From IMG/VR virus record IMGVR_UViG_3300030104_000911, positions 1-53,303 of that record: 53,303 nucleotides of DNA, one strand, 5' to 3'. Shown here one piece after another: positions 14,739-49,738 of this stretch; within the stretch, counting starts at the first letter, position 1; each line of letters begins with the position of its first letter. The position numbers were made by a program, and so were the translations under genes. Origin of the DNA: a virus. The notes beneath the pieces are model-generated. The model did no database searches. It saw nothing but the letters and a program-made list of their open reading frames with translations, and was not told the origin of the DNA.

Positions 14739-14823
14739 CTGTGCTTCGCATAGAGTAATACTTGGGGAAATAGAAGTATATGGGAATAACGAGATTAAAA
14801 TTGATGCACCAGAAAAAAAGTAA
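14695..14823 (+). CDS. Small lipoprotein, candidate outer spanin
   Basis: A 42-residue frame nested over the end of the previous gene and the start of the next, in a different frame. The product begins MKNLYLAVILSLLSSCASHR: a short basic n-region, a hydrophobic core and a lipobox LSS-C16, the mark of signal peptidase II substrates. The mature part is only about 27 residues and ends Lys-Lys. GGAG lies about 11 bases before the ATG. Overlapping, very short lipoproteins in a lysis region are typical of Rz1-type outer spanins. A coiled-coil membrane protein that could be the inner partner is at 16533-16766. Confident as a lipoprotein, tentative as a spanin. Confidence 0.55.
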   Translation: MKNLYLAVILSLLSSCASHRVILGEIEVYGNNEIKIDAPEKK

Positions 14824-16543
14824 TATAATTTTTAGTATCATATTTACCATATGTACGGTTCCTAGTTTTTCCTCTGCAGATACAACTGGGAACCTAATAA
14901 CTAATGGTAATTTCAACAACGGCACTACAGGCTGGACTTTATCTGGCGATGCACAAAGAATTAATGATTGTTGCCCAGGAGGGCATGACTTAGAGTTTGG
15001 GGATAGTGGTAGCATAGAACAATCTTTTGACTTGTTATCTAACACCATTACACAACCAATGCTTGATAACGGCATTACTCTAAACTCTAGTGTTGAAGTG
15101 CAAAATGGAGAGTGTGGTGTAGCTCAATGCTGGGGAGGTAGTGGCCCAGCTGATACCTTTACGATTAGACTACAGATTAGAGATATAAATGACAACGTGT
15201 TGTCAGTAACAACACAGGAGAGAACTAATGTTACGGGAATTAATGGAAAAGATTTTACAGATAGCGTTTCGTTTTCTGGGACAGGGTCTAATCAAGGAAA
15301 TATATTTATTAGTGGTGCTGACGGTAATAGTCCTGCTAATCTTGGTGGGCCTAATGTTGATAATATTTCTGTAACTATGGATTATGATTCAGTTGTACTA
15401 TCAGCAACAGAAACAGCAATTATAGCCACAGCATTTGAAGAGATTGAAGAAGTATTATCTACAGAAATAGAAACTGTAGAGTTTATACCTATAGAAGAAT
15501 TTGTCTTTGAAGTTTTTGAAGAACCAGAGATAACATTTGAAATGATTGAAGAAATAACATTTGAAGAAATAGCTGTAGAAGAAATTAACACAGGTATTGT
15601 AGAAATATTTACCGTAGCTATTGAAGAAGAAATTATACCCATGGAGGTAACTTATGAAGAACCAAAGGCCATCGAAACATTCACAACAGAAATCCAAGGC
15701 TTTGAAGAAAGAACTGAAACAAGCGAAGTTATCCAAGAGTTCTTTGCGGAAGCAGGGGAGGCCGTCATCGAAGCCCCTAACTCTAGCGGAATCGTTGAGC
15801 GAGAATCTACACCTCAAGAGATTGGAGGAGGAGAGACAACAGAAGCTTCAGCAGAAGAAATCGGCGGAACAGGAAATGGAGAAACATCAACAGGAAACGA
15901 AACAACAGTTGTTGCACAATCTGAGCAAGAGAGCGGCGGAGGAGTATCATCAGGAGGAGAACAGCTTGAAAATGAAACTGTTGAGAGCGAAAGCGTGGTT
16001 TCAGGAGATGATACATCTAGCGAAACAGAAACTGAAGTCGCTTCTGAAGAAGTAAATGAAACTAACGGAGAAACAGAAACAGTCGATAGTGAACAAGGAA
16101 GTGAAGGAACTGAAGTTGCTAGTACAGACGGGCAAGATACCGAAAGCAGTAATGCAGAGGTGGAAGAAAGCAGGGATAGTGAAAGTTCTAGAGAAATTAA
16201 TACAACGGTTTCAGTAGAAAGTATTGAACGTAAAGTTAATGAAACTATTAAGAGAGTAGACCAAAGACTTATTACAACATCACTTATTGTTGCTAAAGCC
16301 ATGGAAAGTCCACTTTCTATAGACAATTATGGACAAACCAATAATAATATATTTAAGAATCAACCAAATATTGATGGAGGAGATTACTATGACGAAAGAG
16401 AATTTATTGATGTTAGAAATATTTATAATGAAAACCAAAGTATCTATGGAGATATTGTGGCGGAATATCAAGAAACTTTGCAGACTAGCATAGATAATAG
16501 AATTAGAGCTGAAGAACATCTAAGGAGGATACGTGGATATTAA
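14780..16543 (+). CDS. Secreted, highly acidic protein with carbohydrate-binding-like domain
   Basis: A 587-residue protein. It has a signal peptide at about 10-33 (ends PSFSSA before DTTGN), then a jelly-roll-like domain at about 35-200 (NLITNGNFNNGTTGWTLSG, with Cys pairs and a VDNISVTMDY end), as in carbohydrate-binding modules. Residues about 205-300 are Glu/Ile-rich repeats (EEIEEVL, EEITFEEIAVEEI). About 310-480 are a Ser/Glu/Gly/Thr-rich disordered region. The C-terminal 100 residues are helical. A second ATG at 14804 is an alternative start that still gives a signal peptide. It lies among envelope-directed genes. The function is unknown: a periplasmic or surface role, or a virion protein, are both possible. 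Confidence 0.65.
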   Translation: MGITRLKLMHQKKSNIIFSIIFTICTVPSFSSADTTGNLITNGNFNNGTTGWTLSGDAQRINDCCPGGHDLEFGDSGSIEQSFDLLSNTITQPMLDNGITLNSSVEVQNGECGVAQCWGGSGPADTFTIRLQIRDINDNVLSVTTQERTNVTGINGKDFTDSVSFSGTGSNQGNIFISGADGNSPANLGGPNVDNISVTMDYDSVVLSATETAIIATAFEEIEEVLSTEIETVEFIPIEEFVFEVFEEPEITFEMIEEITFEEIAVEEINTGIVEIFTVAIEEEIIPMEVTYEEPKAIETFTTEIQGFEERTETSEVIQEFFAEAGEAVIEAPNSSGIVERESTPQEIGGGETTEASAEEIGGTGNGETSTGNETTVVAQSEQESGGGVSSGGEQLENETVESESVVSGDDTSSETETEVASEEVNETNGETETVDSEQGSEGTEVASTDGQDTESSNAEVEESRDSESSREINTTVSVESIERKVNETIKRVDQRLITTSLIVAKAMESPLSIDNYGQTNNNIFKNQPNIDGGDYYDEREFIDVRNIYNENQSIYGDIVAEYQETLQTSIDNRIRAEEHLRRIRGY

Positions 16544-22501: not shown

Positions 22502-24067
22502 ATGGCAGTACTAGACCCACAAGAATATATGCAAGCTGTAAGAGATGCTAATGAGCTTAGAAATATACAACGTACTAATCAAGACAGACAAAACTTTCAA
22601 CAGTTTACTCCTAATATAGCAACAGATTCTATAGGTTTAAAATTACCTGACCAGCCTGATACACTTAATATAAAGCAACAAGCAGAAGAAGATAGAATAG
22701 CTAAAGAACAAGAAGATTATAATGCAATGATAAGCAAAAGAGGAGGTATAGACCCAACGTTAAATCCTGGGGCAAGCGATATAGTTAAAGACCAAGCAGA
22801 AATACAAAAAGCCTTTGAAGGCACAGCATATAGAACATTTACTCTTAGAGAAGTTTTAAAAAGTGGTGAAGGACTTGCAAGCTTTGTTAAACTACCTAGT
22901 GGATTGTATAAAAGAAAAAGACCTAGAATTTTTGGTAATGCTGAAGATAATAAAAGATATTATGATGCTATAGAAAAAAATAGAATTCCCGCTGCAAAAG
23001 TTGCTGCTGCTACTAGACCAGAAGGTACTGGTGGTGGTTTAGAAAATGTTGGGGTATTTACTGGGTCACGAGCTGACGCTACGCAAGTATTTCGAGATGA
23101 GCTAGCTTTAATTGAAGAAATGCCTAACAGCCCAGAAAAAATAGCTAGGCTAGAAGACCTTAAAACTAGAATAAAAGATTCTGGAGTTGTAAAATTAAGT
23201 GAAGATGAAGCTAAACGAAAAGGAATTACTCAAGTTAGGAGTAATATATTAACAGATATAGAGAGAATAAAAAAAGATTCAGAACCAGAAAAAATAACAT
23301 TATCTTTTCAAAACGTAGAACTTGCTGAAGCTAACGATGCTGTAAGATTAGCTATACAAAAAAGAAACGAAATTGCAAGACTAGCTAATATAGCTAGGGT
23401 TAAAGGTAATGAAGAAGAATTTAATAACTATAGAAACCAGCTATCTGGATTAGACATTGGTATAGCTAGAGCACAAGGTATGCAAGGTTTAAACGATATA
23501 ACACAAGGTGATACTAGAAGATTAACTGCTGCTTTAAGATTTGCTACAGGACTTAATATACAAATTACACCAAGAGATGACGGTTCTTTTACTGTTGTAG
23601 GTTTAAGCGACCAACCAGAAATAAAAAGTGTTTCTGAACTAATATCTCAAAGTCGACAAATATTTGACAGAGAGTACAAAGCAAAATTAGAAAATCTACA
23701 AATAGAATTATTTAAAGAGAATTATAAATTTGAATTAGAAACTAAAAGAGATTTATATAAAACAGACGCAGAGTTTAGAAAAGACATGGCTTTAAAACAA
23801 AAAGATATGGAAATAGCAGCAGCAAAAAAAGGATGGACATTTACTAAAGATGTAGATGATGGTCAAGGTGGTTTTATGACTATAGCAGAAAAAGATGGAT
23901 TATTATTTAGAGTTAGAAGTTCAATCCAAGAAGACCAAAAAGGCAAAGAGATTTTATATTTTAACTTAGAACCTATCGGTGGTTTTGGTTCTGCACTATA
24001 TTCTACTCAAGAGTATATGAATCAAATTGATAACTCTAGTAAACCAAATGTAGGCGTACAACAATAG
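22502..24067 (+). CDS. Large helical internal virion protein
   Basis: A 521-residue, highly charged, mostly helical protein with coiled-coil stretches (about 255-330 and 385-440). It has no membrane segment and no catalytic motif that I can see. It starts four bases after the glycine-zipper protein and ends ten bases before the giant protein. In podoviruses two or three internal core proteins are encoded together in this order, so a core or ejection role is likely. Function inferred from place only. Confidence 0.62.
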   Translation: MAVLDPQEYMQAVRDANELRNIQRTNQDRQNFQQFTPNIATDSIGLKLPDQPDTLNIKQQAEEDRIAKEQEDYNAMISKRGGIDPTLNPGASDIVKDQAEIQKAFEGTAYRTFTLREVLKSGEGLASFVKLPSGLYKRKRPRIFGNAEDNKRYYDAIEKNRIPAAKVAAATRPEGTGGGLENVGVFTGSRADATQVFRDELALIEEMPNSPEKIARLEDLKTRIKDSGVVKLSEDEAKRKGITQVRSNILTDIERIKKDSEPEKITLSFQNVELAEANDAVRLAIQKRNEIARLANIARVKGNEEEFNNYRNQLSGLDIGIARAQGMQGLNDITQGDTRRLTAALRFATGLNIQITPRDDGSFTVVGLSDQPEIKSVSELISQSRQIFDREYKAKLENLQIELFKENYKFELETKRDLYKTDAEFRKDMALKQKDMEIAAAKKGWTFTKDVDDGQGGFMTIAEKDGLLFRVRSSIQEDQKGKEILYFNLEPIGGFGSALYSTQEYMNQIDNSSKPNVGVQQ

Positions 24068-24076
24068 GAGTTACAC

Positions 24077-27000
24077 ATGGTATTAAAAGTAGGCTTAGAT
24101 TTACCTTCTAATAATACTATTGCTAGAAATTTACCCAGCACTGAAAGTATTGCTAAAGGTATAGAAAGTACACCTTCTCTTAGCGAGTTACAATTAAATA
24201 ATCAAGCATTACTTGCTAATATACAACCAACACCAGAAACGCCTGATGTGTTAGATTCACCTCAAGTTTTTTATAGCCCAAGCACTAGAAAGATGTTTGT
24301 CAACGGCTTGATGTTTGATGATGACGACGCTAAGACAGCATTACAATCTGTAAATCAAATTAAAGCTACGCCTGTAAAACCTTCTTTAGATGTTGCAACT
24401 GATTGGACAAGAGTTAGTCCCCAAGATTATGGCTCTTACATCAAGGGGATTAAAAACCCACAAGCGGGTAGATTATTTTCTGAAAACATAGATATAGGTG
24501 CTAGTAATTTAAAACAATTATTTGGTAGAGCATCACAAGCTTTTGGAGCAGAAGAATTTGGCCAAAGTCTTGTTGATGAAGCTACTAAAGAACTAGAAAA
24601 GAACGAACCTTTTCAAAGAGAATTTGCTAATATTAAAGGTGGGTATATACGAGACGGTGATGCAGAAGAATCACATGATGCCATAGATTGGTTTGTTGCT
24701 AACTTTGGACAACAAATACCAAACTTATTAGAGTCTGTAGTAGTTGCGTTAGCTGGTGCTGCTATAGGTGGTGTTGCAGGTGGCCCTTTTGGTGCTATAG
24801 GTGGAGCAATAACTTCTCTTGCAAGTAGACAATCTTATAAACAAGCTGTAATAAAAGCAGCTAATAAATACCAGAAAGATAGAAAATCACTTACTGCTGG
24901 TGAAAGAAAATTACTTCGTGAAGTATCAAGTTTAACAGCTGTTGCTAAATTAAAAACTCCTAGAATATTTACTGTTGATAGCAAAGGAGTTGCTAAAAAA
25001 ACTTTTGCTAAACCAGATTTAGATGAGGCAATTAAAAAAGGGTTACCTGATGCTGCTGCTAAAGTAGCTGCAAGGGGCAAACGACAAGCTCAAATTGGTG
25101 GTGCTTTAGGTGCAACAACTTTAAGTAGTTATGTTATAGGTGTTGGAGATATATATGGTGAGCAAAGAGAAACGGGTCAAGACAATAGACTGACTGCTTT
25201 TCTTTCTGCAATACCTTATGCTGCATTTGAAACGTTGCCTGAGTTTGTGTTAGGACTAAGACTATTTGGAGTTAACCCAAATAAAATTAGTAAAACATTA
25301 ATAGATGACGGAATAAAAGGAAAATTAAAAAGAGGAGCAGCAAGAGCAACAAAAGGATTTGGAGTTGGTGCTGCATTAGAAGGTGCTACAGAGGTAGCAC
25401 AAGAAAGTTTAATATTAACTAACACAGGACAATTTAATAGTAGAGACCCACAAATACAAAAAAGATTACTTAATGCGTTTGCAGCAGGAGCTTTTGTTGG
25501 TGGCCCAATCGGTGGTGTAGCTAACTTATTTAATAGACCTAGCTCAGATATATTAAATAAAAATAACCAAAGAACTGAACCTAATGACCCATTAGAATTT
25601 GTAGACCAACAACCAAGCCGAAAGGATAGATTAGATGCAACAAGAGATGAAAGAAATGAATTGTTACGTCAACAAATGAAATTACCAGCTTCTGCATTTA
25701 CACAAACTACTGAAGAAATAAATGTATTAGAAAAAGAATTAAATAAAAAACCAGCAAAAGATTTTCCTGTTGCAGTTTTACCTGAAGGCACACAGTTAGA
25801 TTTACCTGGAATAGAAACTGAAGCTGCTGCACAAACTAATAAAGAAATAAATGCGTTAAAAAAACTAATAAACAAAAACAAAAATAAAGGAGACCAACTA
25901 GAACTTGATGTTGGAGCACCTCCAATAGTAGAAACAACTACTACTGATAATAAGAAAACTAATAAAGAAATAAATGAATTAAAAAAACAATTAGATAAAA
26001 AAGAAAAAGATTTAACAGACCCAGTAGTAGCAGACCCAGTAGTAACAGCTCCTGCTTCAGGTTATGCTGCAGGGCAGACTATTCAATACTATGAAACAGA
26101 TGGCTCAATAAATACAGCAGAAATTAAAGCAGTAAGTGAGACTGGAGCTACTTTAAAAGTTGTAAAAAAAGGTAAGAAAAAAGAAGAATTATTATCAGTA
26201 GAAAATATAGAAGCAAATCCTAAAGATGTTAACTTTATTTTAAGAAGTCCTGGTGCAAATATTCAAGGTAAAAAAGCTAATGAACTTAATTTAGAAGAAA
26301 CAAAAAATGCTTTAACCAAACTTAGAGATATTTATAAAGAAGTTATTAATTCAAAACAAAAAATAACTGGAGACTTACAGCGTGATATAACAGCTTTAAG
26401 AAATAGACTTGAAATATTAAAAGCTGAACAGAAAGCAGAAGTTAATTCTGATGTACTTGAAGAAGCTATAAAAACATTCACTATATTTATGTCTGCTCCT
26501 GGAGTAAATTTAACCACACAAGAACAACAAGATTTAAGAGAAGGAACTATTAAACTTATACAAGAAAATAATTTAGATACTATAAAAAAATTTAATGCTT
26601 TTATTAGGTCAGATAAATTTCCTAGAGCTGATGATATAAGAGAGTTAGATAAAACAAATAAATTTATTAAAGACAACAATGTAGACGTTAATTCTGAACA
26701 GTTTATATCTGAAGCTCAAGAAGTATTTGGAGATATGGGGCCTGTACTTTCTAGGCAATTTGCTGCAGAACAAATTATTCAACAAAGAAACGAACAAGAA
26801 GGAGGTACACAAGATGCCGATACGGAGCAAGAAGCAACTGAAGTGGTTACAGGCAAACAAGCCAGAGGTAGCAGAACAACTACTACAGGAGACAACCAAG
26901 AAACAGCTATTGACACTACCAAACAAGATAAGCTTAAAAAGCCTGTCGGAAAAAAGACAACGGGAAAGAAGAAATTACAAGCTAAGAAAACTGAAGACGC

Positions 27001-30000
27001 CACTGGGCAAGTTGACCAAAAACCTGTTCAGGAATCAGAAGATAAAACGGGGGAAGATAACTTAGCAGATACTAGAACAGTAGCTGAGAGAGCTGCAGAT
27101 GAACGAGAAGCAGCAAAAAATAAATCTAAAGATTTAAATGTAGCTGCAGCTGAGTTTTTAAAATCAAAAGGCAAAGCAAGTAAGACTGATAAAAAAATAG
27201 TAAGAAAAGCAAACTTAAAAAAACAAGCAGATGATGCAGAGGTTGCAGAACGTAGACGAAAACGTGTAGAAGTATCAGGTATAAAATTCTGGAATGATAA
27301 TAGAAGTGCTATACCAGGAGCTTCTGCTATAGAATATCAAGGCTTTACAGAACCAACACGTAATAAAATTGACGAGCTAGCTAAAGATTCACAAAAAGCT
27401 GGTGTGTTAGAAGAGTTAAAAACAGTTTGGTTAGAAGGTTTTAACGCTATGATTGGAAGCGATGTAATGAATATTCAAGACTATGTTCAACTTCAAATTG
27501 ATACAATTAGAGAATCTAACGTAGCATTTGAAAGAGAAGCTGCTTACGAAGAAATACTAAATTATACTAGCTCTAATTGGATGGGGCCTTTTGCAGGACA
27601 AAATAAAAAAGCTCTTAATTTAGCAGAAGGATTTTTAAAAGAAGTTACTTTAGATAAAGATTATATTAACGACTTAGAAATTTTAGATGCCTTAGTAATA
27701 CGGAAAGCTTCAGTGCTTACAGATGCACAAATTAATAATATTAAATCTCCAGATGTAGAAAAAAGAACTTGGTATATATATGCAGAAGCACGAGGTTTAT
27801 TACCAACAATAGATAAAAGAAGAGTTAGCAAAACAGGTGGTAAGCTAGAACCATTTATGGAAACATCACCTAGTGAGTTAGATGCACCTAGCGACCCAGT
27901 GTTAAGCGATGAGCAAAAAGCTCAAGCACAAGAAGCAGATGTAGCTATAGTAGAAAAACTTATTATGGATTTATTAGCTGGTGTTGGCCCTAAAATTTAT
28001 AACAGACAAACTTTGCACTACGAAACAATAAATAAAAGATACGCAAAACTTAATGATGAGCAAAAAAGTACAATGATTAATGGTACTAGATTAAGATTTT
28101 ACTTTGATAAAAAAACTAACAAGTTAAAACTAGAAGAAAAACGTGTAGGTAATGAAGTTACTTATATACCTACTACAAAAACTGACGCTTTCAGACAAGC
28201 AAAACTTGAAAAGAAATTACCTGTTGCACAAAAAGAAGGTAAGAAAGAAGCTAGATTAAAAAGAAAAACAGATGCTGCAGAAGAAGCAAGATTAGCAGAA
28301 GAACAAGCACAACGAGATGCTGCAACAGAGGAAGATGTAATAGATTTAGAAAACGATTATAATCCATACGAAGATGATTTCGGTGACGATGGTAGTTACT
28401 TTAGATTTGATGGAACAGTAGCAAACCCCTTACCTAAAGGTAAAGTAAAACTTATTGCTAACCAAGCTGTTAGACAACTAAAAATAAAACCTAAAGTTAC
28501 TGTTGTTAGTAACTATGCAGATTTAGAAGCTAACTACCCTAAATTATATGAAAGAGCTAGAGCAGGTAGAGAACAATATGGAGATGATTTTGGTACAGTA
28601 AACGCTGTAGGTTATTCTATAGGTGATGAAGTAATTATATTTTCAGATTTTGTTAGAACTGAGCAACAACTAAAGTTTGTTATAGCTCACGAAACTATAG
28701 GACACTTTGGTTTAAAATCTTTAATATCTCAAAAACAATTTAATACCGTTATGCAAAAAGTATACGATACTGATAGCCATATTAGAGCTGTTGCAGACCT
28801 TAACATAGAAAATGGTATGGAAAAATTTGAAGCTATTGAGGAAGCATTAGCCGACGCAGCAGCCTATTTAGATAATAGTACTATTAGTAGAGTAATAAAT
28901 GCAATAAAAGTTTTCTTAAATAAATATTTAGGTACTAACTTTGATGCTATAGCTGATGGTAGTAGATACCTTATAAATCAATCTAGGAGATATTTACGTA
29001 CAGGAGATGTAGGTAATTATGTATCACTACAACAACTTCTTAAAAATATAAAACAACTAGAACAAGACAAAGTTTTTGGTCGTTATAATGCTGAAACATA
29101 TAACGACGGACAGCTTGATATGCTTAACAAAACACATGCACTTAATTTACAAACAGGTAAGTACGGTGGTTTTGCTGGAGCCCAACAATGGATAAAAGAA
29201 GTTTTTAGTAATAAATCTTTAGCTACAAAAATTAGAGACTTTAAAACTTTTGTAGACAGAAAAATAGAAGGCCTCCAATCGTTAAATAATTTAGCAAATA
29301 AAAATGAAGGGTCTCAAGTAGGATATAATGTATTGCAACAAATTCAAGCACAAGTCAGAGCCTATGTAGGTAAATATGCAGAAATGACTCCGATGACATT
29401 TAAACCTAATACTTTAGTACCGTTTGGTGATAACAAAGTAGAACCTGATACTGTAGAGATAGAAGACGAAGAAGGTAATATGGTAACAGTAGATAACGAT
29501 GCAGGACTAACTCCATTAGAAAGACAACGAGTTGGTGAATTAAAAGCGTTTGCTGCGTTACATTTAAGAAATAAATTTTCAGAATCTAAAATAGCTGAAC
29601 TTGGTTTAGATGAATTAATTATTACAAAAGATAAAAATGGTAAAACTCTAACTGAATTTGTATACAACGAAGAAGCTTTTCAAAAAATAAAAGAAGCAGC
29701 AAAACTAACAAAAGAAGATTTTGAAAAAGGATTTACAATACCAACTGCTCTTGATAAAGATGGTAAAGCACTAGAAGAACAAGGTGGATATACATATAGA
29801 GCTAGCACACCAGAAGAAACAGGTGAAGCTCCAGGGCAGTTTGAACCTTTTATTATTTCAGACAGAATATTTAAAGCTTACGAAGAAGCAACAGAAGTTA
29901 TGGCTGAGGGTTCTAAGGATGTGCTTGAAGCAAATATAAGAGGTGTTTTAGCACAAAGAGATGACGTTTTAAGTTCAATAAAAGATTTATCTAGCGAAGA

Positions 30001-33000
30001 TTTTCAAGGCAATCACATGCTTGCTATAGAAAATATTATAAAAAAATATAAAGAATTATATTTTGAAAACCATACTGTTGATAAAAGAGGTGAAATTAAA
30101 ACTGATAAAGAATCTGTGGCTATGGCGGATGAATTTTTAGCAAGAGCTCAACGTGCTATGTTTGAAGAAAAAAAATTACAAGACTGGATAAACCAAGACG
30201 CTACAGAAGTAGGCGTATATGAACGTGAAAATGCATCAGAAGAATTTGCAGATATAGTATCTGGGTTAGAAGATTTAAACCAGCTTTTAAATGGTAAAGA
30301 GTCTAAAGCATATGATATAAAAGATGATGTTTCAGCTTTAATAGCTTTAGATTTAGAAAATATGCAAACTGCTAAAACTACTAAAGCTTCTATACTAGGT
30401 GGGTATGTACCATTTACTAGACGAGGTGATACACAAGTAACAATACGAGCATATGCACTTGATGAAAATGGAGATATAAATGAACGGGTTCAACTAGATG
30501 ATAGCATAAAAGATAGTTTACCATATTATCAAACAAACGGCGTACAAGCCGCAGAAAGTATTAGAGATAAAATTAATGATATATTTAATCCAGCTCAAGA
30601 AGGTAAAGAAGATAGAAAATATGTACCTCGTAAAGTAAAAGACGCTAGTGGTGAAATGGTAGAGGTAGCACTTGTACCAGAAGTATCAGGTATTCAAGAA
30701 GGACAACCGTTTCAAAATGAAATGGATATATATTTATTTACTAGAAAAATAAGACAACTTGGGTTTCCAGAACCTAATCCTAAACAACGAGAAAATATAT
30801 TTAAAGAACTTAGCAGACAAGGAGATAGAGCTAGAAAAAGTTTAGAACGTTCAGGTAATCCAGGATGGGATGCAGATGTTTTAAAAAATATTGCTGAACA
30901 TTTAGAAATACAAGCTCATTTAGTAGGTAGAAATTACCATAGATATAAAATTGATAGCCTTATGGATAGTAGAAGAGGACAAAAATTATGGTTTGGTAAC
31001 AAGAAAAAACTTGATAGATTACATAAAGAATTAAAAGCTGCAGAAGCAGGAGATAATCAATTTGCTAAAGAAGAAGCCCGAAGAAAGTACGACCGCTACG
31101 CAAATCAGTATAGATATAGTGCTGGTTCTTTAGACCCTAGGATTCAAGGTGGCACAGTAACTGTATATAGAAACAAAGGTGTACTTGGTCGTGGAGAAAG
31201 AGAAGCTGTAGAAATGCCATTGCAAGCAAGAGGGAACGATTACAAAACAAGGTTTAGAAGTTTAATAGATTTTTATGCAAGAAATCCTAATGTATCCGAA
31301 TCAACTGAGGATTATATATCTAGGTCTAAAGCAGGACAATTCTTTAAACTGTTAACTGTTACTTCTCAATTAGGTTTATCTCCAGCTACTGGGTTTGTAA
31401 ACTCATTAGCCATGGAAACACATTCAGTAAATTATTTAGCAGGTTACAATCCAGAAAGTGGATATGGTGGAGGCTTTGGATTTATGAAATCACAAAAAGC
31501 AATGTATAAAGCCTTTACTCAAATGAATGATATTTACGGAACTCTAAGAAATCAATTTACTACTGAAGAACAATACGATGGAAGGAACGTAGACTTAGCT
31601 GGATTAAAATATGTAGAACAAATGGCTGGTGTTGATAAAGATGGAAACTTATTAACAAACAAAAAAGACCAAGAGCGTGCTCAAAGAATACGAGATAAAC
31701 ATGGGTTATCAGAAGATGAAGCTCGTGTTATATACGAAACTACAAAAGCAGGAGTATTACAAGCTTCCCAATATAATGCATTAATTGGTACAGCTCGAGG
31801 TGGTTTAGGTAATGTTAAGCTAGCAGAAGTGGTAAGAAAGTGGATGTCTATATTCTCATACACAGAACAACTAAACAGAAGAACTACTTTCTTAGCAAGT
31901 TATAGACTACAAAAAGAAAAACTTATGAGGGCAAAAAATGAAGAAACTGCTAGTGCAGAAACTATAGCAGAAGCATCAGCTTGGGCTCGTGACGCAGTCA
32001 ATACATCTCAAGGTGAGTACTCTATGTTTAACAGACCTGAAATATCTAGAGGAGCTATTACTAATTACTTAATGGTGTATAAACAGTTTATGATTATCTC
32101 TACTGAGTTAATGAGTAATATGCCAAGAAGTCAGAAGATAGCATTCTTAGCTATGCTGTGGCTTTTCTCAGGATTAAAAGGATGGCCTTTTGCTGAAGAC
32201 ATTGCAGATGTACTTGATACGTTAATTCAAAAATCAGGTATTAAAATGGGAACTATAGAAAAAGAAGCTAATGATTTCTTTGAAGAGTTATTACCTGGGT
32301 CAGCTAAGATTATTATGCGGGGCCCTCTAGATAATATAACAGGTGCTACCATGTCAACTCGTTTAGGTATGGGTGATATGTTACCATTATCAGGTATAGG
32401 TAAAGCAGGTGCTGATAATTGGAGAGAAACTGCAAATTTCTTAGGCCCTGTTTGGTCAACTCTTGAGTCAACGTGGGCTACAATGAGTAATGTAGCTTTA
32501 GCTACTGGAAGTTTAATAGGTTTAAATGATAGACAAATAGGTCTTGGAACAATCCTTAGAGAGCAACCTTTTGGTGGTGTTAGAGGCATATCAGAAAGTA
32601 TAATTTTTGCAATGGATGGGAACATAACAAACAGACAAGGCAAAGTTATATCTCGAGATGTTGGTATAGCAGACATAGCGTTTAGGTTTCTTAACTTCTA
32701 TCCAGCTAAAGCTAATTATCAAAACGATATAATACGTATGCACAAACAAACAGCTGATTATGCTAAAGCGTTAAAGATGGAATTTACTAGTGATTATGTT
32801 AAAGCAAGGATAAGAGGTGACAGAGATACAATGAGAGAAGTCGCACGAGATGTAGCTAGACATAATAAAAAACATAAAGGCACAGCTCTTGAATTTAGAG
32901 ATTGGAAAAAATCTGCTGATAGAGCGTATGATTCATGGAGTCTACCAGCTGCTGAACGATACAGAAAGTTTGCACCAAAAACCATACGACCTGATTTAAA

Positions 33001-33040
33001 ACGTATAATGGATGCGTACGGCGTAGAGCAAGATATGTAA
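24077..33040 (+). CDS. Giant 2,987-residue virion protein with HETIGH peptidase motif
   Basis: The largest gene in the window. Visible parts, in order: residues about 135-215 charged; 222-248 a glycine zipper (ALAGAAIGGVAGGPFGAIGG), a likely membrane or channel segment; about 560-1130 Lys/Glu-rich, with repeats of the EINxLKK type; near 1538-1542 a zinc-peptidase HETIGH motif, with a downstream glutamate in EEALADAAAY (about 1588) that could be the third ligand; about 2415 onward conserved stretches (GLSPATGFVNSLAMETHSVN, GYGGGFGFMKS) seen in giant phage internal proteins. The C-terminus is basic. It ends the late operon, so it is probably injected with the DNA. Proteolytic activity is predicted from the motif only. 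Confidence 0.78.
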   Translation: MVLKVGLDLPSNNTIARNLPSTESIAKGIESTPSLSELQLNNQALLANIQPTPETPDVLDSPQVFYSPSTRKMFVNGLMFDDDDAKTALQSVNQIKATPVKPSLDVATDWTRVSPQDYGSYIKGIKNPQAGRLFSENIDIGASNLKQLFGRASQAFGAEEFGQSLVDEATKELEKNEPFQREFANIKGGYIRDGDAEESHDAIDWFVANFGQQIPNLLESVVVALAGAAIGGVAGGPFGAIGGAITSLASRQSYKQAVIKAANKYQKDRKSLTAGERKLLREVSSLTAVAKLKTPRIFTVDSKGVAKKTFAKPDLDEAIKKGLPDAAAKVAARGKRQAQIGGALGATTLSSYVIGVGDIYGEQRETGQDNRLTAFLSAIPYAAFETLPEFVLGLRLFGVNPNKISKTLIDDGIKGKLKRGAARATKGFGVGAALEGATEVAQESLILTNTGQFNSRDPQIQKRLLNAFAAGAFVGGPIGGVANLFNRPSSDILNKNNQRTEPNDPLEFVDQQPSRKDRLDATRDERNELLRQQMKLPASAFTQTTEEINVLEKELNKKPAKDFPVAVLPEGTQLDLPGIETEAAAQTNKEINALKKLINKNKNKGDQLELDVGAPPIVETTTTDNKKTNKEINELKKQLDKKEKDLTDPVVADPVVTAPASGYAAGQTIQYYETDGSINTAEIKAVSETGATLKVVKKGKKKEELLSVENIEANPKDVNFILRSPGANIQGKKANELNLEETKNALTKLRDIYKEVINSKQKITGDLQRDITALRNRLEILKAEQKAEVNSDVLEEAIKTFTIFMSAPGVNLTTQEQQDLREGTIKLIQENNLDTIKKFNAFIRSDKFPRADDIRELDKTNKFIKDNNVDVNSEQFISEAQEVFGDMGPVLSRQFAAEQIIQQRNEQEGGTQDADTEQEATEVVTGKQARGSRTTTTGDNQETAIDTTKQDKLKKPVGKKTTGKKKLQAKKTEDATGQVDQKPVQESEDKTGEDNLADTRTVAERAADEREAAKNKSKDLNVAAAEFLKSKGKASKTDKKIVRKANLKKQADDAEVAERRRKRVEVSGIKFWNDNRSAIPGASAIEYQGFTEPTRNKIDELAKDSQKAGVLEELKTVWLEGFNAMIGSDVMNIQDYVQLQIDTIRESNVAFEREAAYEEILNYTSSNWMGPFAGQNKKALNLAEGFLKEVTLDKDYINDLEILDALVIRKASVLTDAQINNIKSPDVEKRTWYIYAEARGLLPTIDKRRVSKTGGKLEPFMETSPSELDAPSDPVLSDEQKAQAQEADVAIVEKLIMDLLAGVGPKIYNRQTLHYETINKRYAKLNDEQKSTMINGTRLRFYFDKKTNKLKLEEKRVGNEVTYIPTTKTDAFRQAKLEKKLPVAQKEGKKEARLKRKTDAAEEARLAEEQAQRDAATEEDVIDLENDYNPYEDDFGDDGSYFRFDGTVANPLPKGKVKLIANQAVRQLKIKPKVTVVSNYADLEANYPKLYERARAGREQYGDDFGTVNAVGYSIGDEVIIFSDFVRTEQQLKFVIAHETIGHFGLKSLISQKQFNTVMQKVYDTDSHIRAVADLNIENGMEKFEAIEEALADAAAYLDNSTISRVINAIKVFLNKYLGTNFDAIADGSRYLINQSRRYLRTGDVGNYVSLQQLLKNIKQLEQDKVFGRYNAETYNDGQLDMLNKTHALNLQTGKYGGFAGAQQWIKEVFSNKSLATKIRDFKTFVDRKIEGLQSLNNLANKNEGSQVGYNVLQQIQAQVRAYVGKYAEMTPMTFKPNTLVPFGDNKVEPDTVEIEDEEGNMVTVDNDAGLTPLERQRVGELKAFAALHLRNKFSESKIAELGLDELIITKDKNGKTLTEFVYNEEAFQKIKEAAKLTKEDFEKGFTIPTALDKDGKALEEQGGYTYRASTPEETGEAPGQFEPFIISDRIFKAYEEATEVMAEGSKDVLEANIRGVLAQRDDVLSSIKDLSSEDFQGNHMLAIENIIKKYKELYFENHTVDKRGEIKTDKESVAMADEFLARAQRAMFEEKKLQDWINQDATEVGVYERENASEEFADIVSGLEDLNQLLNGKESKAYDIKDDVSALIALDLENMQTAKTTKASILGGYVPFTRRGDTQVTIRAYALDENGDINERVQLDDSIKDSLPYYQTNGVQAAESIRDKINDIFNPAQEGKEDRKYVPRKVKDASGEMVEVALVPEVSGIQEGQPFQNEMDIYLFTRKIRQLGFPEPNPKQRENIFKELSRQGDRARKSLERSGNPGWDADVLKNIAEHLEIQAHLVGRNYHRYKIDSLMDSRRGQKLWFGNKKKLDRLHKELKAAEAGDNQFAKEEARRKYDRYANQYRYSAGSLDPRIQGGTVTVYRNKGVLGRGEREAVEMPLQARGNDYKTRFRSLIDFYARNPNVSESTEDYISRSKAGQFFKLLTVTSQLGLSPATGFVNSLAMETHSVNYLAGYNPESGYGGGFGFMKSQKAMYKAFTQMNDIYGTLRNQFTTEEQYDGRNVDLAGLKYVEQMAGVDKDGNLLTNKKDQERAQRIRDKHGLSEDEARVIYETTKAGVLQASQYNALIGTARGGLGNVKLAEVVRKWMSIFSYTEQLNRRTTFLASYRLQKEKLMRAKNEETASAETIAEASAWARDAVNTSQGEYSMFNRPEISRGAITNYLMVYKQFMIISTELMSNMPRSQKIAFLAMLWLFSGLKGWPFAEDIADVLDTLIQKSGIKMGTIEKEANDFFEELLPGSAKIIMRGPLDNITGATMSTRLGMGDMLPLSGIGKAGADNWRETANFLGPVWSTLESTWATMSNVALATGSLIGLNDRQIGLGTILREQPFGGVRGISESIIFAMDGNITNRQGKVISRDVGIADIAFRFLNFYPAKANYQNDIIRMHKQTADYAKALKMEFTSDYVKARIRGDRDTMREVARDVARHNKKHKGTALEFRDWKKSADRAYDSWSLPAAERYRKFAPKTIRPDLKRIMDAYGVEQDM

Positions 33041-42835: not shown

Positions 42836-43038
42836 TACTCATTCTCTTTTATTAGTTTATTAAGATAAGCCTGTGCCTTCTTTAAATCCTCAAATCCCCC
42901 CTTCTTCTTCCACCGAACAACATACTTAATAATATTACCCTCTAAAAAATCTAATTTCTTATCAACAATAAAATCCCAAACTTGTATCTTGCCTTGTGTA
43001 TAATGAATTGGGTTATCTATATTATCTTTTTTCTTCAT
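42835..43038 (-). CDS. DUF3310 family protein (nucleotide-kinase-type)
   Basis: A 67-residue protein that matches DUF3310 over its whole length: NIDNPIHYTQGKIQVWDFI, FLEGNIIKYVVRWKKKGG, EDLKKAQAYLNKLI. The conserved HY, the N-x-x-KY-x-x-R and the D-x-x-KA-x-x-YL are all present. The family includes T7 gp1.7, a nucleotide kinase, but that protein is longer and this is only the conserved domain. It overlaps both neighbours by a few bases. A nucleotide-pool role beside PolA is reasonable. Confidence 0.85.
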   Translation of the reverse strand: MKKKDNIDNPIHYTQGKIQVWDFIVDKKLDFLEGNIIKYVVRWKKKGGFEDLKKAQAYLNKLIKENE

Positions 43039-43514
43039 GACAAGTTCTCTACTTTACTTTTATGTAAACTATATATTGCCACCCCTTTTCCACAATGTAA
43101 AGAATGCTCATTAGTAACACCTACTGCCTCACTTGAAGTAGCCCCCATACTCAATGCCCCATACGAAAACTCTTTACCATCTCCGAATGCACATGGCACA
43201 AAACCATGTACTGTTGGATAAGGAGAATCATCATAAACAATCAACCCTTTGTCTTTATCTACGACAACAAGTTGTTGTGTGGTAATCCTAGTTGCAGAAT
43301 CTTTTAGCCCGTAAGGATATTCATTAGGTACTGCCCCATTAATAAACCACTCTCTTAAAGAGACAATGTATTTGAGGTATCCTACTCCCGATACTATGTA
43401 AGGTTTATCATCTCTCATTACATACCATGCTTTGTCTGTCTCCCATTTAAGTGAGCCATCACTAGCCTGTCTGTCTGTGGCTAAAGTTTCGCCGTCCCAT
43501 ACTACTACTGTCAT
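43035..43514 (-). CDS. Proteasome beta-like Ntn hydrolase
   Basis: A 159-residue protein that looks like a proteasome/HslV beta subunit. After removal of Met1 the chain begins with Thr (TVVVWDGETLATDRQASDG). Asp14 and Lys28 stand where the catalytic Asp17 and Lys33 of HslV would be. The C-terminal half has GDGKEFSYGALSMGATSSEA and later HCGKGV, as in the helical layers of that fold. Similar phage genes are known but their substrates are not. It is 15-20 residues shorter than HslV. It shares ATGA with an upstream zinc-finger-like gene. Threonine-protease activity is predicted, not shown. Confidence 0.75.
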   Translation of the reverse strand: MTVVVWDGETLATDRQASDGSLKWETDKAWYVMRDDKPYIVSGVGYLKYIVSLREWFINGAVPNEYPYGLKDSATRITTQQLVVVDKDKGLIVYDDSPYPTVHGFVPCAFGDGKEFSYGALSMGATSSEAVGVTNEHSLHCGKGVAIYSLHKSKVENLS

Positions 43515-43681
43515 TTGTTTTCCTCCTCATACAATTTCTCTACTTCAGATACACACTCTCCACATCTATAACCCTCTTTATCATCATTGTAAGCTGGGTA
43601 TCTGTTTACAAAACGACCACTTCCAAAATGACAAGGTTTACCACAATCAATACATATTTGTTTATCGAATAAATCAATCAC
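43511..43681 (-). CDS. Small Cys-rich zinc-binding protein (GTG start)
   Basis: A 56-residue frame that fills the gap between two clear genes. The start is GTG with AGAGAGG nine bases upstream, inside the previous gene, which it overlaps by eight bases. Its stop overlaps the next ATG by ATGA. Cysteines C10-x2-C13-x3-C17 and C40-x2-C43 suggest a zinc knuckle. The last residues EEENK are written by the ribosome site of the proteasome-like gene. It could be an accessory to that hydrolase or a DNA-binding protein. Confidence 0.6.
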   Translation of the reverse strand: MIDLFDKQICIDCGKPCHFGSGRFVNRYPAYNDDKEGYRCGECVSEVEKLYEEENK

Positions 43682-46726: not shown

Positions 46727-47878
46727 TTAATTACCTCTCTTGTTGTTTGTTTCATCTTGCATAATAGTCACTTCTCCAAATGGTGGTGTACTCGCACTCT
46801 CATTTGTTGATACCCATAGCACAGGGTAATCGGGCATATCCCCATAGTCACTACAACACAAGTCTGTTAGAAATATACATGCAACAGGGTTTATGTTTTT
46901 CTCTTGCATGTATGTAAAGACAGGGCTAAATGCCGTACCTCCACCACCATGTGGCTTAAAGGTAGGCTCTGTGTCCCTATCAAACTCATCAGCATGGCAA
47001 ACGCTACTGTCAAAATAGATAACGTGTATCTTCTCGGGTTTATGTGTTTCCCATACTTCTCTTACTTCACTTGCAAATTGATTCAATTCATTCTCAGTAA
47101 TAGAGCCTGATGTATCTATTGCAAATGCTATCTCGCCTAGTCCCTCGCCTGAAACACTAGGCATGATTAGTCCTTGTGAAATAAATCTTCTGTTCGGTCT
47201 TGCATAAGACCTGTCATCATTCCTTTGCTTGACAACGAATCGTTGTAAGACATCACGCCAATCAACTTTAGGTTTAAGTAATGTACCAACAAGTCTCTCC
47301 ATGTTGGCACTAAGTTTGCCCATCATCTTAGCTGACTGACTTGCTTGTGCTACTTTAACTTTCCATTCTGCTCGTTGTTGTTCTATCTCAGCAGGGGATT
47401 GACCACCATCTTCGCACGAATCTAATGCTTGACCACTTCCTTGGATACCACCATTGGGTGTATCTTTGTCATCTTGTGGTAGCAAGTGGTATATCTTATC
47501 TGATATACCCTCGCCCTCATCATAGATACTCTTATCCAACAACCCATCTTTAGGCATTACACCTATATGCTCATCAACAAGTAGCTGATTGATTACAAAA
47601 TCAGTAGCTACATTCCATAGTCGTGCGTCCTTGTCTCCTCTACGAACACAATGTTCAAGCATAGGATGAAAGCATTCATGAGCCACCAAGAATAGTAACT
47701 CATCATCACTCAATGTCCCACAGAAGTCGGGGTTTAGCACAACTTCTTTGCCGTTAGTCATAGCCGTTGGACACTCATCACTAACTCTGAACACCATGTT
47801 CATAGCTACTGTGCCAATGAATGGGTGTTCAAGTATCAATCGTGTCTTAGCTTTACTTATTCGTGTGTTTATATCCAT
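46727..47878 (-). CDS. Metallopeptidase-like / VWA domain protein (DUF2201-like)
   Basis: A 383-residue protein. The N-terminal part is a zincin-like domain with VAHECFHPMLEH (H67-E-x2-H71) followed by NVATDFVINQLL, as in the DUF2201 family. The C-terminal 140 residues are a VWA domain with the MIDAS loop D255-T-S-G-S259 and a later GGGGTAFSPVF (threonine ligand region). VWA proteins of this kind are the partners of MoxR AAA+ ATPases, whose gene lies 0.9 kb upstream in the same operon. The Zn and Mg sites both look intact. Substrates unknown. Confidence 0.85.
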   Translation of the reverse strand: MDINTRISKAKTRLILEHPFIGTVAMNMVFRVSDECPTAMTNGKEVVLNPDFCGTLSDDELLFLVAHECFHPMLEHCVRRGDKDARLWNVATDFVINQLLVDEHIGVMPKDGLLDKSIYDEGEGISDKIYHLLPQDDKDTPNGGIQGSGQALDSCEDGGQSPAEIEQQRAEWKVKVAQASQSAKMMGKLSANMERLVGTLLKPKVDWRDVLQRFVVKQRNDDRSYARPNRRFISQGLIMPSVSGEGLGEIAFAIDTSGSITENELNQFASEVREVWETHKPEKIHVIYFDSSVCHADEFDRDTEPTFKPHGGGGTAFSPVFTYMQEKNINPVACIFLTDLCCSDYGDMPDYPVLWVSTNESASTPPFGEVTIMQDETNNKRGN

Positions 47879-48748: not shown

Positions 48749-49738
48749 TTATATTATTACATTTTGTTTGTCTACTGCCCACTTAGTGAACTCGGGTGTA
48801 TTCATCAAGTCTGTGTTCTTCTTGACTGCATACGATACCGACAGTACTGAAAACTCAGGTGGTATCCTGTCTAGGTATGTCAATACATTCTTGAAGTTAT
48901 CCACCGTTGAATATGTGGCTAGACTACCAGCCATTGCGTACAATGTAGCAGGGTCATTAGGCACAATAGCGTCTAGTGGTTTCTTGATGAGTTGTTCAAT
49001 GTCAGGTAGATTACGAAATATCTTAATAAACCCAACGAACTCTGCACTAGCCCCTTCGCCTACTGCCCCTTTGAATGTCTCATACTCTGCCTCTTGTGAT
49101 ACAATGCCTATCGCATTGGATACACCTTCAACCCAACTCCTTGGTGTAGGATTAGATTCTCGTTGTGGGTTAAAGTCATGCAGTAAGTCTGTTCTAAACT
49201 TAATGAATGATATGACTTCGGGTTTGACATCATGGTCAATAGCCCATGACAACCAATCATCAACGTGTGTCTCTAAGTCATACACAGTATGCCTGTTACG
49301 TAAGTGAGACAGTATGCGATTAGCCCCTGCCCTATCTGACACCTTGTTGCCTGTTGATATTATTTGCCAACCCTCTTTCATTGGCACACCATGTAGGTTT
49401 CTAGCTTGGCACATGTTAGCCACCACTTTCTGCAAGTCAGCACTAGCTTGATTCATGTCGTCAAAGCATAGTATACCTGTATCAGGATGATTACTGCCTA
49501 CTGCAGGAAAGAAGTTTGCTAGTGTGTGTTTCAATGTGCCATCAGGTTGTGGTATGGGTATACCAAAGTCTTCTACCAACATGGTTGGCATATGTACTTC
49601 AATGTATCCAACACCCATTTCCTTGGCAACCTCTTGGCATATGGTAGTCTTACCACCACCTGGGCTACCTTCGATAGCTATTGTCCTCTTTATTTTAAAC
49701 AAATCCTTAATGGTTTGTTTCATTAGTTTTGCTCGCAT
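48749..49738 (-). CDS. MoxR-family AAA+ ATPase
   Basis: A 329-residue AAA+ ATPase. Walker A is GSPGGGKT (24-31), Walker B ILCFDDMN (89-96), and sensor 1 IISTGN (126-131) is followed by an Arg-containing region (SHLRNRH, arginine finger candidate). MoxR proteins remodel partners together with VWA proteins, often to load metals or switch complexes. The VWA/zincin gene two places downstream is the expected partner. AGGAGG lies in the end of the previous gene, giving the TAATG coupling. The C-terminal 100 residues form the helical lid. Confidence 0.88.
   Translation of the reverse strand: MRAKLMKQTIKDLFKIKRTIAIEGSPGGGKTTICQEVAKEMGVGYIEVHMPTMLVEDFGIPIPQPDGTLKHTLANFFPAVGSNHPDTGILCFDDMNQASADLQKVVANMCQARNLHGVPMKEGWQIISTGNKVSDRAGANRILSHLRNRHTVYDLETHVDDWLSWAIDHDVKPEVISFIKFRTDLLHDFNPQRESNPTPRSWVEGVSNAIGIVSQEAEYETFKGAVGEGASAEFVGFIKIFRNLPDIEQLIKKPLDAIVPNDPATLYAMAGSLATYSTVDNFKNVLTYLDRIPPEFSVLSVSYAVKKNTDLMNTPEFTKWAVDKQNVII

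Follow-up and report, generated by a model that had tools for sequence, protein, structure and literature searches.

The window analysed here, the whole of a record of 53,303 nucleotides from an uncultivated phage (IMG/VR IMGVR_UViG_3300030104_000911), encodes on its minus strand a protein of 159 amino acids for which structure prediction and profile comparison support a proteasome-like Ntn hydrolase fold. In our opinion the gene is best filed as a PPH, that is, among the phage members of the family, a branch published in 2021 (PMC8665760), rather than as HslV. We lean towards the view that its product is a compact stand-alone hydrolase of the proteasome-like Ntn type, active on its Thr and without a dedicated unfoldase. 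This kind of gene is already known; what is added here is its fixation in one phage lineage, an apparent exchange of residues in the second shell of the active site, and evidence against a partnership with a MoxR ATPase. The features that the argument relies on are the following.

43035..43514, minus strand: PPH gene for a 159-aa predicted proteasome-like Ntn hydrolase whose mature N-terminus would be Thr2 (PHROG_1040, AlphaFold, Foldseek)
43509..43511, minus strand: Thr2 codon, candidate nucleophile at the N-terminus once Met is cleaved off (Thr in 72/77, Ser in 5/77 distinct sequences)
43473..43475, minus strand: Asp14 codon, equivalent of proteasome/HslV Asp17 (77/77; aligned to HslV Asp17)
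43431..43433, minus strand: Lys28 codon, equivalent of Lys33 (73/77; 30/30 in alignment A3; aligned to HslV Lys33)
43380..43382, minus strand: Gly45 codon, equivalent of oxyanion-hole Gly47 (77/77)
43179..43181, minus strand: Asp112 codon, in the place of proteasome Ser129, GSG to GDG (counts in the clade against divergent PPHs)
43101..43103, minus strand: Ser138 codon, standing where the proteasome has Asp166 (register set by aligning archaeal proteasome beta)
43092..43094, minus strand: Cys141 codon (C-G-x-G), in the place of proteasome Ser169 (73/77)
43522..43527, minus strand: Shine-Dalgarno-like AGGAGG 5' of the PPH start codon (sequence ...TATGAGGAGGAAAACAA-ATG)

The first-pass annotation of this DNA had proposed a phage-encoded proteasome beta-like hydrolase at 43035-43514 without giving its strand. 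The reading frame is real: it runs on the minus strand from an ATG at 43514 to 43035 including the stop codon, and its product matches a known phage family. At each end it shares 4 bases with a neighbouring frame, upstream an ORF of 56 amino acids (43681-43511) and downstream the DUF3310 gene (43038-42835). Against relatives that are 81-88% identical, dN/dS is 0.14-0.20; the gene is under purifying selection. As to the two neighbours, the upstream minus-strand ORF is cysteine-rich and has a weak PHROG match only (phrog_35699), while the DUF3310 protein, 67 aa and also on the minus strand, is named 'nucleotide kinase' in PHROGs, probably a name derived from fusion proteins.

Family membership was judged by PHROG_1040 together with the published description of PPHs, in place of the authors' own alignments. 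The PHROGs entry that the ORF matches, at E 2.1e-19, is PHROG_1040, 'peptidase HslV family', and each of the 20 sequences in a family alignment (A1) matches the same entry. Searched as a single sequence the protein has no match in Pfam or NCBIfam, the cut-off of Pfam PF00227 (Proteasome) not being reached, and BLAST against HslV detects no similarity; single-sequence matches among PDB chains to YiiX and a lipocalin were weak and were set aside as chance. A profile of close relatives only was too shallow to reach HslV. A profile of 30 diverse relatives, run against PDB chains, reaches archaeal proteasome beta, HslV and BPH with E values from 1e-6 to 1e-5, and hhalign of the broad profile against E. 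coli HslV gives E 2e-8.

The structure prediction and structural search that had been suggested as a check returned an Ntn fold. The AlphaFold model, built from 53 sequences, has a pLDDT of 88.6 and a pTM of 0.84, with the last 6 residues below a pLDDT of 50. Foldseek against PDB gives HslV as the best match (6kui, E 1.9e-8; 1g3i, 5e-8) and also matches proteasome beta subunits; there are hundreds of matches at E <= 0.001, and the best 50 are all proteasome or HslV, with TM-scores that are moderate (0.6-0.7) and an rmsd of about 5 A. An earlier model from 20 sequences likewise led Foldseek to HslV and proteasome beta. Among viral proteins in BFVD, 43 have this fold at E <= 0.001, and some of them are named 'Proteasome subunit beta' or HslV. 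Helix H1 is modelled at residues 47-58, followed by just a 3-residue turn ahead of the strand at 81, so that helix H2 is missing; further helices lie at 114-122 and 127-137. The region 'GDGKEFSYGALSMGATSSEA', earlier likened to the helix layer of the fold, indeed spans in the model the loop before H3, the helix at 114-122 and the start of that at 127-137.

The original description as a proteasome beta-like hydrolase thus holds with respect to the fold, and the filing is what we correct. Given that there is no Pfam Proteasome match, no helix H2 and no HslU-type gene, the protein is not HslV itself.

The placement of the catalytic residues rests on alignment to solved structures and on conservation. 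With hhalign, Thr2, Asp14 and Lys28 fall on Thr1, Asp17 and Lys33 of E. coli HslV, which bears out the correspondence first proposed for Asp14 and Lys28, and Gly45 falls on the conserved glycine after strand S4. Among 77 distinct PPH sequences the nucleophile is Thr (72) or Ser (5), Asp14 and Gly45 are present in every one, and Lys28 is kept in 73; in the 30-row alignment A3 Lys28 is invariant. A second sample of 42 members, picked through DNA polymerase instead of PPH, agrees, with Asp14, Lys28 and Gly45 each in 42/42 and Thr in 40 against Ser in 2. The relatives begin MT or MS, as annotated in reference phages, and have no propeptide. The window's ORF also begins MT, so the chain would start with Thr once Met is removed, as had been expected.

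Met aminopeptidase would expose Thr2; by analogy with the proteasome and HslV, Asp14 and Lys28 would activate its hydroxyl, and the amide of Gly45 would stabilise the oxyanion. The first reading had gone from a complete triad directly to an active enzyme. The core triad is indeed there and hydrolase activity is likely from the sequence, but that argument left out a second triad, Asp112/Ser138/Cys141, with which either hydrolysis or transpeptidation would be possible, and the efficiency of either may likewise vary.

The Thr1 amine of the 20S proteasome is protonated by a second triad, made up of Ser129 and Asp166 together with Ser169; D166N strongly lowers the activity of the yeast proteasome, and D166A in an archaeal proteasome blocks autolysis (PMC4792962). 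Aligned with archaeal proteasome beta, the window's protein has S138-x-x-C141 opposite D166-x-x-S169 and GDG opposite GSG, and thus Ser129/Asp166/Ser169 reads Asp112/Ser138/Cys141 in it. In the window's clade, 54 of 56 members have Asp, Glu or His at position 112 (as do 42/42 of the polymerase-anchored sample), whereas 16 of 21 divergent PPHs have Ser there. Position 138 is Ser in all 56 clade members and Asp in 11 of the 21 divergent ones. It appears from these alignments that acid and hydroxyl have been swapped between the two positions in this clade. The swap is a single event in one clade, and for that reason we do not count the co-occurrence as statistical covariation. A proton relay probably persists through Asp/Glu/His112-Ser138-Cys141, in which acid and hydroxyl have changed places. 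However, since D166N and D166A impair proteasomes, the altered second shell could also mean weak or non-hydrolytic chemistry. The exchanged second shell is a natural experiment on how much rearrangement the proteasome active site can take and still work.

How does the protein compare with systems already described? Published PPHs are phage-encoded and short (about 140 aa), lack H2 and a propeptide (PMC8665760), and carry equivalents of Thr/Ser1, Asp17, Lys33 and Gly47, all of which, apart from the exact length, holds for the window's protein. Judged by that description, it differs in its 159 residues (149-172 across its clade) and in having Asp/Glu/His112 and Ser138 in the second shell. In genome papers genes of this sort go by the name HslV, with the remark that HslU is missing (pSal-SNUABM-04, PMC7823757). 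With HslV (ClpQ) the protein shares the Ntn fold and the core catalytic residues, but it has no detectable pairwise similarity to it, lacks H2 and HslU, and has GDG for GSG. With proteasome beta it shares fold and core triad, and its C-terminal C-G-x-G aligns with the D-x-x-S-G motif; it differs in having neither propeptide nor H2 and in the replacement of Ser129/Asp166/Ser169, and the genes of the record that were examined include no alpha subunit or proteasomal ATPase. BPH (5ovs), a Group I relative found by the PPH profile at E 7.5e-6, is larger, with a chain of 201 aa, and is known to assemble into a double ring. Connectase belongs to the same family, has fewer helices and acts as a monomer on specific sequences; its two-helix insertion between S3 and S4 is not present in the window's PPH.

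The phage origin assumed at the outset is confirmed by the other genes of the record, which is that of a tailed phage with major capsid, portal/head-tail connector, tail fibre, internal virion protein, ssDNA-binding protein, helicases, exonuclease and DNA polymerase; PPH relatives, too, occur in Caudoviricetes. Among isolates it is closest to Rhizobium phage RHph_TM3_14A and its kin, with 54% identity in the capsid and 38% in the polymerase. A Foldseek match in Vibrio phage VpV262 had pointed to Zobellviridae, but this placement was dropped because capsid and polymerase are nearest to RHph_TM3_14A. On the plus strand, the structural region also holds a giant ORF of 2987 aa (24077-33040), and two further ORFs, of 587 aa (14780-16543) and 521 aa (22502-24067), have no match in PHROGs or Pfam.

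Downstream of PPH lie the DUF3310 gene (Pfam PF11753) and then a family A DNA polymerase. We sampled 80 contigs with a DNA polymerase at least 64% identical, of which 57 hold at least 1,200 bases upstream and can be tested; PPH stands just upstream of the polymerase in all 57. The eight contigs without PPH all hold fewer than 600 bases upstream of the polymerase. PPH is fixed in this phage lineage, and such fixation beside the polymerase, with near-invariant core residues, is good evidence for a function on which the phage depends. The order of the syntenic block is MoxR ATPase, p47878, DUF2201 metallopeptidase/VWA, p46042, p44873, PPH, DNA polymerase, exonuclease, VRR nuclease and helicase. 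Other phages carry PPH at other sites, in many cases close to lysis genes (Siara, JenK1, Xanthomonas phage L13.2). Within the block, the minus-strand gene at 46042-46755 matches Nmad5 (nucleotide modification associated domain) weakly and below the cut-off, a possible link to DNA modification.

It could be argued that PPH works with an AAA+ ATPase, either the phage's own MoxR-like one (48749-49738) or a host unfoldase (HslU, ClpX), given that the MoxR gene and the DUF2201 VWA/metallopeptidase share its gene block in an order conserved across the lineage. We hold this to be quite improbable. The record has no HslU-type gene (no AAA_2 match). Rhizobium phage RHph_TM3_14A carries the MoxR ATPase but lacks PPH; conversely, ten other phages with PPH gave no MoxR match that convinces, the best reaching E 2.3e-4 over about 60 positions, and phage records with MoxR matches number 727 against 47 with PPH matches. 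As each gene is found elsewhere without the other, the MoxR ATPase is an unlikely partner. More improbable still is a non-enzymatic role, in which the protein would enter the HslV rings of the host as a poison subunit or decoy and so inactivate them. The fold does resemble HslV and the second shell is altered, but a decoy would need none of the core residues that are so strictly kept (nucleophile, Asp and Gly in 77/77, Lys in 73/77), and the protein is too divergent from HslV for BLAST to detect.

A more serious rival is a connectase-like ligase or single-site processing enzyme, in which the Thr2 acyl-enzyme would be passed to an amine or hydrolysed at one sequence. The family already includes a monomeric ligase, the changed second shell could favour aminolysis, and no unfoldase partner was found. 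On the other hand, the model lacks the connectase insertion at S3/S4, an insert at that place occurs in few clade members (L027-L029) and is only about 15 residues long, and no candidate recognition sequence was found. We therefore regard this reading as unlikely, though less so than the two before it. Similarly doubtful, to our mind, is the related idea that the clade's inverted second triad gives a non-ordinary reaction, be it ligation or very specific cleavage, needed at the replication stage.

It must also be counted against an active stand-alone PPH that individual proteasome subunits are active only once assembled, and our search of the literature, including that after 2021, found no biochemistry or function for any PPH. 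Nevertheless, for the stand-alone hydrolase that we prefer, the likeliest mode would be cleavage that needs no ATP and acts on peptides, on unfolded proteins or at one particular exposed site of a protein of phage or host, since no dedicated AAA+ unfoldase is encoded and helix H2 is missing in the family. Its place beside DNA polymerase suggests that it would act in the replication phase, at which time its gene block would be expressed.

Some minor observations deserve mention. The MoxR-like ATPase gene and the DUF2201 metallopeptidase/VWA gene (46727-47878), both on the minus strand, form a conserved pair; the PHROGs name 'HNH endonuclease' for the DUF2201 protein looks like a misannotation, because Pfam DUF2201_N and DUF2201 are both over cut-off. 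The jumbo Erwinia phage pEa_SNUABM_43 has two PHROG_1040 matches, at record positions 1-498 and 102665-103195, and Klebsiella phage YX3973 has a PPH-like match at 27327-27734, where the public record annotates no gene.
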